Source: a bacterium (GTDB lineage: Bacteria > Bacteroidota > Ignavibacteria > Kapaibacteriales > Kapaibacteriaceae). From it: 38,406 bases of DNA. The notes beneath the pieces were generated by a model, which made no database searches, was not told the DNA's origin, and was given only the letters and a program-made list of their open reading frames with translations. Positions 13,647 to 19,888 of this stretch are shown here, piece after piece (the first letter of the stretch is position 1; each line of letters begins with the position of its first letter). Location: positions 1 through 38,406 of the forward strand of contig JANJTN010000130.1 in the NCBI GenBank assembly GCA_024711065.1, written 5' to 3'. Position numbers and translations under genes: made by a program.

Positions 13647-13676
13647 TTGCATGTGCCACGATAAATCGTATATTAT
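13647..13676 (+). promoter_or_regulatory. candidate promoter of the giant surface-protein gene
   Basis: TTG (13647-13649), 19-nt spacer, TATATTAT (13669-13676), inside an AT-rich leader. Resembles TTG-N19-TAnnTTTG. Confidence 0.45.
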
Positions 13677-13682
13677 TAGAAT

Positions 13683-13698
13683 GCTACAGGAATGTAGC
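13683..13698 (+). promoter_or_regulatory. 5'-leader stem-loop (GCTACA-GGAA-TGTAGC)
   Basis: Perfect 6-bp stem closed by a GNRA tetraloop (GGAA), about 6 nt after the candidate -10 box. Confidence 0.5.
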
Positions 13699-13755
13699 GC
13701 TGAATCTCCTCCGAAAATTTGTGTTCGTTTTGACCTATCAACCAGGAGTCATTCG

Positions 13756-16700
13756 ATGAGTTTTGTTCCAAACATTTTCCGGGGCATGGTAGCAACCCTC
13801 GTGTTGCTAGCGATGACTGCCGGAGCTGCTGTTGCGCAGGACGTAACAGAGAAGCGTGGAACGATGGGCCTGATGGAAGGTCGCCAGTATCTGGTGGCAT
13901 TCCCGCAGGTATGGGCAAGCCCAACGGAGAAGCCGTTGCCGAATCCGATGGTCTTGTTCATTTCCTCACGTTCGAAGGCGAAAGTGAAGATCACGACGCC
14001 GTCCGCGATCAACTCCGCAGCTGGGATCAATCGTGAGTACACGATTCAGCCGAACGAAGTGCTGCGCGTGCCGATCTCCACGGCCTACATGAACGAGGAA
14101 TCGGAAGCCCGTAACGGCTTCGGTATTTCCGTTACGGCGGACAAGCCCATCTCTGTCTCTACCTATCAAGCCTGGATGGGTAATGGCGAACTGGCTCGCA
14201 ACCTGCCGATCGAAGCGTGGGGACGGAACTACTACACGATGAACTTTTATCAGGATCGGTATGGTTCGTCCAGCCAAGGGTACAAGTATCGCCCGGCACA
14301 GATCCTGATCATCGCTGCAAAAGACAACACGGTGGTGTCCTACACGCCGACGTTCGATACCGAAGGTGGTCGTGATCAGCCGAGTGTGCGCAAAGGCCAG
14401 ACCGGCCTGGTCACGCTCGAGAAAGGTGAGACCTTCCTGATCAAGGCCAAGATCGACGAGCCGTACAACAAAGAGTTCACCACCGACCTTTCCGGCACCT
14501 GGATCCGTTCCAGCCGTCCGGTTGGCGTGATCTCCGGCCATACCAAGGTGGCCATCATGCGTTATCCGGACGTGCTTCCGCCGACCGGTATGTTCGCTGC
14601 AGAAGCACACTTTGTGCGTAACAACGTCCACGACGCCATGCTGCCGTTCGAAATGGCCGGCACGGAGTTCGTGACGGTGCCGGCTCAGTACACGCCAACG
14701 CGCGTTACGGGTCAGGCTTCGGTGGAATTCGGTATTGATGACGACCGTGGCGACGTGATCCGTTTCGTGGCGCTGGAAGACAACACCACGCTGACGGCTA
14801 TGCGCGAAGACGGTTCTGACTTCAAGAATATCAAGAAGCTGAATCGCGGTGAGACCTGGCTCGAGACCTCGGTCGAAAAGGCCACGTTCTGGAAAGCCGA
14901 CAAGCCGATCCTGATGGGTCACTATGGCAAGTCGTACGCCAAGATCCTCCCGCCGGCAGCCGCTTCGAAGAATGGCGATGCCACCCAGGGTCACCCGACC
15001 GTGGAGTCCGGCATGCCGATGCTTCAATATGTACCGTCCACCGACCGCTACGTGAATTACGCGGTCTTCCACTCGCCGGAAGGCATGGACAACTTCTTCA
15101 ACATTGTGTTCAAGCCGGAAGAAGTAGCCAAGATCAAGGTTGACGGTCGTTCGCTCAGCTCCGCTTTCGGTGGCTCGATGCGGATGCTGGCTGGCACGCC
15201 GTACGCCTTTATCCGCACGCCGATCGGTGCCGGCGACCACGTGGTCGAGTCCGAAACCGAAGACGTGAAGTGGATGGGTTGGACCTACGGCTCGCTGGAT
15301 GGTCTGCAGCAAGGTCGTGCCTACGGCACGCCGGTGGCTGTTGATCTTGCCATCCCGTGCGACGATTCTCTGGCCGTTGTTGAGACACTGCTTTGCGGCG
15401 ACGTTGATGCCGAAGGTAAGATCCTGCCGGAAGACTCCGAGTGCGGTTCGATCTTCACGGTATATGCCGAAAGCCTGGACAACTACGAACTGATCGTTGA
15501 CGAGAAGTTCGACTCCGGCGACAAGAAGGTGAAGTTCAATGTGAACGTTCTGGACAAGACCAAGGACGCCATGGCGGTCGTACGCGTGGTAACCCGCTCC
15601 GGCAAGTTCATTGAGAAGACCTATACCTATATCGCGGACAAGATCGACTGGGATCCGAAGAAGGTTGACTTCGGTACCATTCCGTTCAACACCGAGGTAT
15701 GCAAAACGGTCACGTTCACGAACCTTCGCACCGATGCACCGGTAACGGTCAAGCAACTCACCGCGAAGTACTTCCCTGGCAACTTCCGCTTTACTCCGAA
15801 TAACTTCATCATCGATCCGGGTGCTTCGTTCACGGTACAGGTTTGTGCCGTAACCAACGACACCAAGGAAAAGGTCGACACGATCATTGCTGAACTCGAG
15901 TGCTTCGACCAACTCACGGCTGAACTCCGTGTCCGTTCGGAAGCTCCGATCATTTATGTGGAAGATCAGACCTGGGTGAACATCCCGGCCTCGTCGCCTG
16001 GCATTCGCAAGCCGGTCCAGATCATCAACTCCAGCGATGTAGACCTGATCATCACCGGCTACGACAAGACGCTGCTCAATGCAACGAGCCGCTACTTCAA
16101 GAATCCGGAGAATCTGGACAACGTCCTGCCGCTGACCCTGCCGGGTGGCGCTCGTCACACGTTCCATGTGACCTACAGCCCGGAAGGTGAGTCCGGTGTT
16201 CAACACCGTATGGACGTTCCGTTCTACTCGAACGCTGTCGAGGTAGACTCGATCGCAGTCCTGATCGGTAACGGTGTCGACGTAGAGATCTATGCAGCTG
16301 CAGAACCGTGGAATGTCCGCGTGCTCGACAATGTGCAGACGGCACAGGGCATTACGAGCTATCCTCAGCAAGTAACGTTCGAGAACAACGGCGACCTCGG
16401 CGTTGAGTTCTCTCAGCCGATCATCCGTGGTGCCGACGCTGCCAACTTCCGCATCGTGGATAATGGCAATGTTGGTACGTTCCCGATCACACTGTTGAAG
16501 AGCGGTCCTTCGAGCAAGTACATCAACATCGAGTTCGTACCAACTGAGCAGCCCAATCGTGGTGCCGAGCGCAGCAACTACGAAGCGGAACTGGTGTTCC
16601 CGAACAACTCGATCGTACCTGAGTATGTTGTGGACCTGAGTGGTATCGCTTGGCAACCGCAGGTGAAGGGTGCCGATCAGAACTTCGGTGTCTTCAATCA

Positions 16701-18255
16701 AGGTGATGCCGTCGTAACGATGCAGATCCCGATCTCCAACACCAACTACCAGGATGTGACCAACCCGACAACGGGTAACACGAATGGTACGCATGATGTG
16801 GTGATCACGGACATCCGCATTGTGGGCGCCGCGAACAACTTCACGATCCTGAATGCACCGTCGCCGGCAGCGCCTTGGCGCCTGAGTGGTGGTGAGTCTC
16901 GCGACCTCGATGTGTCGTTCAACCCGAATGCTTCGGGCTCCTACACGGCTCAGTATGAGATCGTTACCCGTCCTGCCGACATGACCAACGGTGCTGCACC
17001 GTATACCCCAGTGTATACGCTGACAGCTGAAGTGGTTGGTGGCGACTACACGGTTACCGACGCATATATCGAGCAGTATGTGTACAACGCTGCAGAGCTG
17101 CAGGTCGTGGTTCGCCACACCGAAGCTCAAGCTCGTACGTACACCATCAGCTTGCCGCAAGGTCCGGATGCTTCGCGCTTCACAGTTGTAGAGCCGGCCA
17201 ATGGTCAGCTCACGGTCAACCCGGGTCAGGATGGCATCGTTCGTGTTCAGTTCATTCCTGACTTCGTTACCAAGATGCGCGCCGGTCAGACCATGGCTAC
17301 GCTTACGCAGAAAGGTGCCGGCTCGGCGATCAACTGGCGTGGCTCGAACTTCTCGGCTACGATCGACATTACCGACGATCTGAACCAGGAAGTCAAGACG
17401 GCTACGGTCAGCGGCGATGGCTTGTTCCTCGAGACCACCAACTTTGTTGGCGAATTCAACGAAGATGGTGCCCGTAAGACGTCGTACCGCGTCAAAGTTG
17501 GCGAGTCGGTGAACGTGGCTGTCAGCCTGGCTGCAGATCCTGAGTCACTGGACAACGCACAGATCAATGAAATGCGTGTACGTATGTCGTGGGATCCGGC
17601 CCTGGTCCGCCCACGTATGAACAAGGAAGACATCATCCTGAATGGTACGCTGGCCGAAGGTTGGACGATCCTGAAGGTTGAGCCGTTCACGCCGGCTGGC
17701 TCGAATGTGCCGAACTCTATGGAGATCGACCTGGCAGGTCCGACGCCGCTCGTGAATGATGGCGAAACGCCGTTCTTCCTGGTCACCTTCGACTCGTTCC
17801 TCGGAACGGGTTCGGATCAGACGAACCTCTTCCGTACCCCGGTATCGATCTATTCGTACACGGTGGACTTCGATGGTTCGGATGTTCAAGGTGTGAGCAA
17901 GGCTTACGTCCTCTTCCGCGACATCAACGGCGAGATCGAGATCGATCCGGATTGTGCCAAGTCTCTGCGCCTTGTGAGCATCAGCTCCACGCAGTTCTCG
18001 GTCAAGCCGGCAACGCCGAACCCGGTCACGGGTCCTGCTACGATCAACTACTCGATCGGTCTCGACGGCCGCACGCGCATCGTCCTGTACAACAACATGG
18101 GTCAGCGTGTGATGGATCTGATCGACCAGAATCAGAGCCGCGGCGAGTACCAACTGTCGCTCGATCTTACCACGGTCCCGGCTGGCACGTACTACTACCG
18201 CGTGATCTCCGGTCCGTTCGTCAGCGAGCCTCAGGTGATCACGGTCGTGCACTAA
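13756..18255 (+). CDS. giant secreted surface protein (about 1499 aa): IgGFc-binding-like N-terminus, HYDIN-like repeats, cohesin-like segment, T9SS type A C-terminal domain
   Basis: Signal peptide MSFVPNIFRGMVATLVLLAMTAGAAVAQ; FGTIPFNTEVCKTVTFTNLRTDAPVTV...; KPATPNPVTGPATINYSIGLDGRTRIVLYNNMGQRVMDL...PAGTYYYRVISG. AGGAG precedes the ATG. Confidence 0.85.
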   Translation: MSFVPNIFRGMVATLVLLAMTAGAAVAQDVTEKRGTMGLMEGRQYLVAFPQVWASPTEKPLPNPMVLFISSRSKAKVKITTPSAINSAAGINREYTIQPNEVLRVPISTAYMNEESEARNGFGISVTADKPISVSTYQAWMGNGELARNLPIEAWGRNYYTMNFYQDRYGSSSQGYKYRPAQILIIAAKDNTVVSYTPTFDTEGGRDQPSVRKGQTGLVTLEKGETFLIKAKIDEPYNKEFTTDLSGTWIRSSRPVGVISGHTKVAIMRYPDVLPPTGMFAAEAHFVRNNVHDAMLPFEMAGTEFVTVPAQYTPTRVTGQASVEFGIDDDRGDVIRFVALEDNTTLTAMREDGSDFKNIKKLNRGETWLETSVEKATFWKADKPILMGHYGKSYAKILPPAAASKNGDATQGHPTVESGMPMLQYVPSTDRYVNYAVFHSPEGMDNFFNIVFKPEEVAKIKVDGRSLSSAFGGSMRMLAGTPYAFIRTPIGAGDHVVESETEDVKWMGWTYGSLDGLQQGRAYGTPVAVDLAIPCDDSLAVVETLLCGDVDAEGKILPEDSECGSIFTVYAESLDNYELIVDEKFDSGDKKVKFNVNVLDKTKDAMAVVRVVTRSGKFIEKTYTYIADKIDWDPKKVDFGTIPFNTEVCKTVTFTNLRTDAPVTVKQLTAKYFPGNFRFTPNNFIIDPGASFTVQVCAVTNDTKEKVDTIIAELECFDQLTAELRVRSEAPIIYVEDQTWVNIPASSPGIRKPVQIINSSDVDLIITGYDKTLLNATSRYFKNPENLDNVLPLTLPGGARHTFHVTYSPEGESGVQHRMDVPFYSNAVEVDSIAVLIGNGVDVEIYAAAEPWNVRVLDNVQTAQGITSYPQQVTFENNGDLGVEFSQPIIRGADAANFRIVDNGNVGTFPITLLKSGPSSKYINIEFVPTEQPNRGAERSNYEAELVFPNNSIVPEYVVDLSGIAWQPQVKGADQNFGVFNQGDAVVTMQIPISNTNYQDVTNPTTGNTNGTHDVVITDIRIVGAANNFTILNAPSPAAPWRLSGGESRDLDVSFNPNASGSYTAQYEIVTRPADMTNGAAPYTPVYTLTAEVVGGDYTVTDAYIEQYVYNAAELQVVVRHTEAQARTYTISLPQGPDASRFTVVEPANGQLTVNPGQDGIVRVQFIPDFVTKMRAGQTMATLTQKGAGSAINWRGSNFSATIDITDDLNQEVKTATVSGDGLFLETTNFVGEFNEDGARKTSYRVKVGESVNVAVSLAADPESLDNAQINEMRVRMSWDPALVRPRMNKEDIILNGTLAEGWTILKVEPFTPAGSNVPNSMEIDLAGPTPLVNDGETPFFLVTFDSFLGTGSDQTNLFRTPVSIYSYTVDFDGSDVQGVSKAYVLFRDINGEIEIDPDCAKSLRLVSISSTQFSVKPATPNPVTGPATINYSIGLDGRTRIVLYNNMGQRVMDLIDQNQSRGEYQLSLDLTTVPAGTYYYRVISGPFVSEPQVITVVH

Positions 18256-18286
18256 GCGCAGACCGTAGATCCTGATACGGAACTTT

Positions 18287-18322
18287 CAAGCCCCCTTCTG
18301 GCGTATGCCGGAAGGGGGCTTG
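18287..18322. terminator. terminator-like long hairpin, both arms containing the AGGGGGCT octamer
   Basis: CAAGCCCCCTTCTGGC-GTAT-GCCGGAAGGGGGCTTG, 16-bp stem with one G.U pair, 31 nt after the 18255 stop. No strong U-tract. Confidence 0.7.
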
Positions 18323-18364
18323 GTCTTGATGTCCTCGCAGTGTGCCATTCTCGAAGTTGTGAGT

Positions 18365-19888
18365 ATGCGTATTACCCTTTGTACCGTCTTCGCCTTCCTG
18401 GTCATAGGAGGATTACATCTTGTCCGTGCTCAAGGAGATATCCCTTGGACCCCGGTGGTCGATACCGGGCTTGTGCGGACGACGATCACGGTTCCTCCGC
18501 AGTTCGCCGGTTTAGGACTCGACCCACAACGTCACGTGGTCTTTATTCCACGTGGGTGGACGGCGCACGTGTACTTTGCCGGCTCTGCATTGGATAAACC
18601 GCGCTTCCTTGACTGGGGGCCGGACAGCGTGTTGTACGTGGCTGATATGGATCGCAATGCTGTCTATGCACTGCCGGATCTCGACGGCGATGGTGTTGCC
18701 GACGAGGCAGTGATCGCGGCGCGTACAACGGCAGTCTGTGGCGATGTCAAGTTCTACCGCGACACGATGTACACCGCAGCCGAGGCAGGCGTGGTAAGGC
18801 GTTGGCGCTCGGCCGGTATAGGGTACAACTACGATCAGAGTACGATCGTGGTCAACAAAACGCAACAGCCGGATCAAACCGGTGGTAATCACCGGACGCG
18901 GACCGTGGTATTGGACTCCGTACACGGAAAGCTCTATCTGAGTGTTGGTTCAAGGGGCAATGCCGATCGTGAGCCTACCAGAGCGGTGATCGAAGAGTAC
19001 GCCTGGGATGGTAGTGATCGCACGGTTTACGCTCGGGGTGTGCGCAATGCCGTAGGGATGACGCTCCATCCACGGACCGGTGTTCTCTGGGCCAACAATA
19101 ACGGGAGCGATCTGCAGGGAGACAACATCCCACCGGAATGGATCGACATTGTCCGACCGAACGGGTTCTACGGCTATCCGATAGCCTATCATCAGCAGAA
19201 CTGGTTCAACTTCTCCGCTCCTGGCTATAGCGATCTTCTTCCGATCACGGCCAGTGACAGTTCCGATGTGAACGCCATGGTGCCGCCAGCCGCCCTCGTC
19301 TGGGCGCATTGCGCACCCATGGAACTCGAATGGAGTCATCCCGGCATGCCCGACCGTTGGAAGAATGGTCTCTTCGTGGTCCTGCGCGGATCCTGGAATC
19401 GATCACCCGTTAGTGGTGCCAAGGTCGTATTCCTGGAGTTTGATAGCGATCAGGATACCATCGCCAATGCTGTCCACGAGTTCTGCACTGGCTTTATCAT
19501 CGACTCCAATCGTGTGGATACCCGATGGGCACGGCCCGTTGGAATGGCCTTGGCTGCAGACGGAAGCGTCTATATCAGCAGCGACGACCTGCATGCGTTC
19601 ATCCTGAAGCTTACCCCACCAACGCCCGTTTCGGTGGATGAAGGATCTGTTGGTTACATCGATCTCCATGCAGTGCCGAACCCGGCAGACGACCATGTAA
19701 CGATCACAGCGCCAGTGTCAAGCGGTACCGTAGAAGTGATCGATGGTCAGGGTAGGGTAATGTTGCAAGGGGCTCTCCAGGATCACGCCGCAACGATACC
19801 CACCTCGTCGCTGCCCACAGGCGTGTATCACGCCGTGGTTCGAGCCTCTTCGACCGTTGGGCAAGCCACCTTCAGGGTCGTTCGATAG
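18365..19888 (+). CDS. secreted PQQ-type sugar dehydrogenase/sorbosone dehydrogenase-like beta-propeller with T9SS C-terminal domain
   Basis: VYFAGSALDKPRFLDWGPDSVLYVADMDRNAVYALPDLDGDGVADEAVI, LYLSVGSRGNADRE, RGVRNAVGMTLHPRTGVLWANNNGSD; tail LHAVPNPADDHVTITAP...LPTGVYHAVVR. Confidence 0.85.
   Translation: MRITLCTVFAFLVIGGLHLVRAQGDIPWTPVVDTGLVRTTITVPPQFAGLGLDPQRHVVFIPRGWTAHVYFAGSALDKPRFLDWGPDSVLYVADMDRNAVYALPDLDGDGVADEAVIAARTTAVCGDVKFYRDTMYTAAEAGVVRRWRSAGIGYNYDQSTIVVNKTQQPDQTGGNHRTRTVVLDSVHGKLYLSVGSRGNADREPTRAVIEEYAWDGSDRTVYARGVRNAVGMTLHPRTGVLWANNNGSDLQGDNIPPEWIDIVRPNGFYGYPIAYHQQNWFNFSAPGYSDLLPITASDSSDVNAMVPPAALVWAHCAPMELEWSHPGMPDRWKNGLFVVLRGSWNRSPVSGAKVVFLEFDSDQDTIANAVHEFCTGFIIDSNRVDTRWARPVGMALAADGSVYISSDDLHAFILKLTPPTPVSVDEGSVGYIDLHAVPNPADDHVTITAPVSSGTVEVIDGQGRVMLQGALQDHAATIPTSSLPTGVYHAVVRASSTVGQATFRVVR

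Follow-up and report, generated by a model that had tools for sequence, protein, structure and literature searches.

The question raised by this locus is whether a hairpin whose two arms carry inverted copies of an abundant genomic octamer is a terminator built from DNA uptake signals, or a hairpin that exists without the word and has come to contain it. The hairpin lies in the 38,406-nt stretch of DNA analyzed here (the window), which comes from a family of uncultured, Kapaibacterium-type Bacteroidota, on the + strand at 18286-18323, with arms at 18286-18302 and 18307-18323 that form a 17-pair stem closed by a GTAT loop (18303-18306). Both arms carry AGGGGGCT, an over-represented word of the genome, the left copy at 18289-18296 on the - strand and the right copy at 18313-18320 on the + strand. 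The stem begins 30 nt past the stop codon (18253-18255) of a gene encoding a giant surface protein of 1534 aa (13651-18255, + strand), in which Pfam recognizes IgGFc_binding, ASPM/SPD-2/Hydin-type Ig-like and T9SS C-terminal sorting domains. It is followed on the same strand by a gene (18365-19888, +) assigned by Pfam to a secreted GSDH-like protein with a T9SS sorting domain, whose likely start lies 42 nt past the hairpin. The gene order around the hairpin is shared by the family orthologues of this downstream gene.

The initial annotation had described a hairpin of terminator type that directly follows the giant gene, with the octamer in both arms and no strong U-tract, and all of this holds. 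The sequence that it quoted at 18287-18322 matches the window exactly, the surrounding 60-nt stretch folds with -36.7 kcal/mol (z -6.7 against shuffles), and none of 200 shuffles reached the stability of the hairpin. The tail, TCTTGATG (18324-18331, + strand), is weakly T-rich, with 4 T in 8, and falls short of the strong U-tract of an intrinsic terminator. This is ordinary for the genome of the window, where weak T tails are the rule and stop-proximal hairpins have a mean of 2.8 T in 8. A simple terminator scan with a threshold of at least 5 T in 8 did not report 18286-18323, and an Rfam scan of the window at the gathering threshold gave no match to an RNA family. Like intrinsic (Rho-independent) terminators, the element combines a stable GC-rich stem and a short loop directly after a stop codon with a structure conserved by compensatory change; unlike them, it has a weak U-tract, as do the equivalent hairpins of most relatives, an exception being G005 with 10 T in a row.

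We have compared the equivalent intergenic gap in relatives that share the downstream gene, in a set of 19 family members including the window. The relatives from public genomes are Kapaibacterium/'Ignavibacteria' metagenome-assembled genomes, placed in Bacteroidota by NCBI. One of these records, JAGFIZ010000022.1 (L218, the same place as contig C29 of G005), is titled 'Bradyrhizobiaceae bacterium'; G005 falls in the genus of the window, and the label looks wrong. All 19 members carry a hairpin of 12-18 bp shortly after the stop codon of the giant gene, but the orthologous hairpin contains an octamer pair in only four of them (G000, G004, G005 and G006, from genera g1 and g2), so that what is conserved is the hairpin, the octamer being restricted to a lineage. 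These four are found among six sampled g1/g2 members, whose orthologue proteins are only ~55% identical. In G001 and G002 one compensated pair (GC to AT) differs from the window at the octamer, and in the remaining 13 orthologues the arms differ and the hairpin is built from other pyrimidine-rich/purine-rich arms. Most stem positions show many pair types among the orthologues. As judged from this comparison, compensatory change appears to have kept the hairpin through the family, and the octamer pair appears to be a local add-on and not the reason for the existence of the hairpin. The locus thus shows clearly how a word of the genome can enter the stem of a hairpin that is also present where the word is lacking. 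Some selection may also act on the octamer within the hairpin, given the pairs in four of the six g1/g2 members and the intergenic enrichment of close pairs described below.

The orthologues also indicate the strand on which the element acts. Under a scoring that treats G-U and A-C equally, the coding strand of the 19 stems contains 15 G-U wobbles and no A-C wobble, which indicates selection on the + strand RNA; as the orthologues share ancestry, this 15:0 count represents fewer than 15 independent events. The coding-strand fold is more stable than that of the other strand in 13 of the 19 cases, tied in five and weaker in one.

The hairpin is therefore real and conserved, and functionally it is ordinary. 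It is likely to be the conserved RNA 3' end of the giant-gene message, or to terminate this message in part, with the octamer put to a secondary and lineage-limited use. We infer that it terminates the message or protects its end, and that part of the transcription reads through. The + strand transcript would fold the hairpin soon after the stop codon, which would define the end of the giant message or stop part of its transcription. The stem, which is long and GC-rich and has a purine-rich 3' arm, would stall or release RNA polymerase with little contribution from the U-tract, as is the rule for this genome, and would shield the RNA end from 3' exonucleases. Partial read-through probably feeds the secreted GSDH-like gene 42 nt downstream, since little promoter space is left after the stem. 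In fact, an in-frame ATG of the next gene lies at most 46 nt from the stem in 10 of the 19 genomes, leaving scant space for a separate promoter. A sigma-70 scan from the hairpin to the next gene found no promoter, although Bacteroidota promoters deviate from that consensus. In the four octamer-bearing members of g1/g2, the outer arms at the same time match the genome-wide signal of the family, GGNARGGGGCT.

Intercistronic hairpins that stabilize mRNA or terminate in part are known, e.g., from malE-malF and the puf operon. The present hairpin resembles them in being stable and in standing between a structural gene and a co-directional downstream gene with little promoter space; differential decay or read-through is their feature, which for the present hairpin would be a prediction.

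The octamer itself is a genuine genome-wide signal, as the initial annotation had claimed. AGGGGGCT occurs 18 times in the window, against 1.06 expected, and 1,293 times in the 2.56-Mb genome (625 and 668 on the two strands), against 26 for the reversed word. The extended word GAAGGGGGCTT that had been proposed is correct only in part: it is GGNARGGGGCT that is enriched, and there is little information at the positions 3' of the octamer core. In addition, the variant AAGGGGCT is enriched 26-fold (211 seen, 8 expected), next to 49-fold for AGGGGGCT, and most other one-base variants of the octamer are near or below expectation. About 91% of the octamer sites fall within coding sequence. Most members of the family show this enrichment, and the other families of the order do not. 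The literature searched contained nothing relevant on this octamer, nor on uptake sequences of Bacteroidota. A replication-strand (KOPS-like) signal was considered and rejected, as the octamer shows no polarity along G004, a complete genome, nor relative to the local GC skew in G000.

If inverted pairs of this word were a standard way of making terminators, they should stand out in the genome, and Neisseria gives the measure, with 226 inverted pairs in one orientation and 5 in the other within 10 nt (Kingsford et al., 2007; PMC1852404). The whole-genome count of close inverted pairs (gap of at most 30 nt) gave 18 in the orientation AGCCCCYT..ARGGGGCT and 14 in the opposite one, with ~16 expected for each, and thus no excess over chance. 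Summed over 18 family genomes, the two orientations do differ mildly (167 vs 118, p 0.004). This mild excess is not specific to hairpins: an unbiased sample of G000 shows an orientation ratio of 1.5-1.9 at distances of 38 to 600 bp, but of 0.99 at distances below 38 bp. An apparent enrichment of '-+' pairs at hairpin range was discarded, because it came from a sample with contigs chosen for pairs and the unbiased ratio is 0.99.

The close pairs are distinguished by their location. Intergenic positions hold 7 of 18 and 5 of 13 close pairs in the two orientations, vs 8% of single sites; the pair of the window was entered by hand as intergenic, as the gene caller had over-extended the start of the next gene into the hairpin. 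This bias indicates that a handful of gene-end hairpins contain octamer pairs, in both orientations. Besides the pair studied here, ~11 further pairs are intergenic, and the majority lie near gene ends, so that the expectation of the initial annotation that inverted pairs would be found at other gene ends is borne out. On contigs C36, C66, C113, C202 and C209 of G000, pairs of the type ARGGGGCT..AGCCCCYT form intergenic hairpins, several of them near gene ends. In 483 kb not chosen for pairs, 44 strong hairpins have a stop codon at a distance of at most 100 nt, and one of these hairpins contains an octamer pair; the genome-wide estimate is ~9 octamer-pair hairpins among 233 stop-proximal ones (~4%). 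The density of the octamer alone would yield an estimated 1-2, and the excess, although small, is real.

We have weighed three other explanations of the arrangement against these data. The initial annotation had read it as an uptake-signal terminator in the Neisseria/Haemophilus sense, i.e., the octamer would be a DNA uptake signal (DUS or USS) whose inverted pairs have been widely co-opted as terminators. The likeness is considerable: a hairpin after the stop codon, arms made of an inverted abundant word, a long stem, few T, the preference of close pairs for intergenic positions, and a density of ARGGGGCT (about one per 1.1 kb) that resembles those of DUS and USS, with 1,471-1,965 copies (PMC1852404). 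However, the word is found in 54-57% of the terminators of Neisseria and in 17-29% of those of Pasteurellaceae (Kingsford et al., 2007; PMC1852404), and the large share (17-57%) that this reading predicts contrasts with the ~4% estimated here genome-wide. Close pairs occur at chance frequency and have no strong orientation preference, the mild excess in the family not being confined to the hairpin range, and 15 of the 19 relatives keep the hairpin without an octamer pair. The machinery points in the same direction. We found the secretin domain (PF00263) in none of 15 genomes of family f1, in a search where control genomes gave the expected results. The secretin PilQ forms the outer-membrane pore of the known DUS/USS organisms, and its absence from 15 of 15 genomes suggests that this route is unavailable. 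ComEC is present in 14 of the 15, which would favor uptake, but it is also present in the E. coli and Bacteroides controls, and thus its presence does not discriminate. Altogether, we regard the uptake-signal terminator as an unlikely explanation of the hairpin, and the arrangement, which had been offered as systematic backing for the uptake reading, does not provide it. This result removes one argument for the octamer as an uptake signal, since inverted pairs, a prominent source of terminators in Neisseria, are no more frequent here than expected by chance. The octamer as such may or may not serve in uptake; natural competence exists in Bacteroidota, in Riemerella (PMC8383284), so that uptake could follow a route other than PilQ.

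The opposite extreme would be a chance overlap, in which two copies of a very frequent word happen to have arisen at the site of a terminator, octamer and hairpin being unlinked. The total of close pairs equals chance and the arms of most orthologous hairpins are unrelated, just as this would predict, but it accounts poorly for the ~9 octamer-pair hairpins where density predicts 1-2, and for the retention of the pair in four of six g1/g2 orthologues despite the low identity of their proteins, and we consider it quite improbable. The arms are nearly perfect palindromes and consist of a motif found throughout the genome, which could also suggest a DNA-level element, either a cruciform or a protein-binding palindrome such as a double recombination site, instead of an RNA element. 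The G-U wobbles of the coding strand, with A-C never appearing, speak against it, as does the fixed position after the stop codon of arms that vary freely while their pairing holds, and this explanation retains very little probability. A conserved RNA hairpin at the end of the giant message, with a lineage-limited octamer in its arms, accounts best for the locus.

A better lead to the role of the octamer, and a testable one, is its strand-specific spacing, observed in two genomes. It was measured on 800 kb of G004 and, for G000, on 483 kb from contigs selected without regard to pairs. Same-strand copies of ARGGGGCT at most 600 bp apart number 40 vs 116.8 expected in G000 and 19 vs 56.1 expected in G004, i.e., 0.34 of the expectation in both. 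Opposite-strand copies show no mutual avoidance in either genome, and neighboring octamers alternate in orientation, the same and opposite orientations being found 134 and 266 times in G000 and 123 and 259 times in G004. This strand dependence has to be accounted for by any valid explanation of the octamer. A Chi-type recombination signal would be a frequent, strand-specific word with a cognate AddAB/RecBCD enzyme; in the present genomes, the strand-specific spacing is accompanied by a PDDEXK_1 nuclease domain in 15 of 15 genomes and by no replication polarity. We would give even chances to the proposal that GGNARGGGGCT is a previously undescribed, family-specific and strand-acting signal of Kapaibacterium-type Bacteroidota, with a same-strand exclusion of ~600 bp, that acts independently of the secretin/type IV pilus route, either as a Chi-like recombination mark or as a one-strand uptake mark, and is co-opted into a few conserved terminators, the present one included.

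Two further observations concern other repeated words in these genomes. In G009, which belongs to the same family (genus g5), the family octamer is weak on contig C100, where the words AAAGGGGC (25 vs 1.9 expected) and AAGGGGCA (25 vs 2.6) are enriched instead; they look like a dialect of the family signal. No word like these is enriched in G008 (genus g4). Moreover, G000 contains on many contigs short tandem arrays of the hexamer TTGCTG or the heptamer TAGACGC (L006, L009, L025, L026, L041, L044 and L053, among others).
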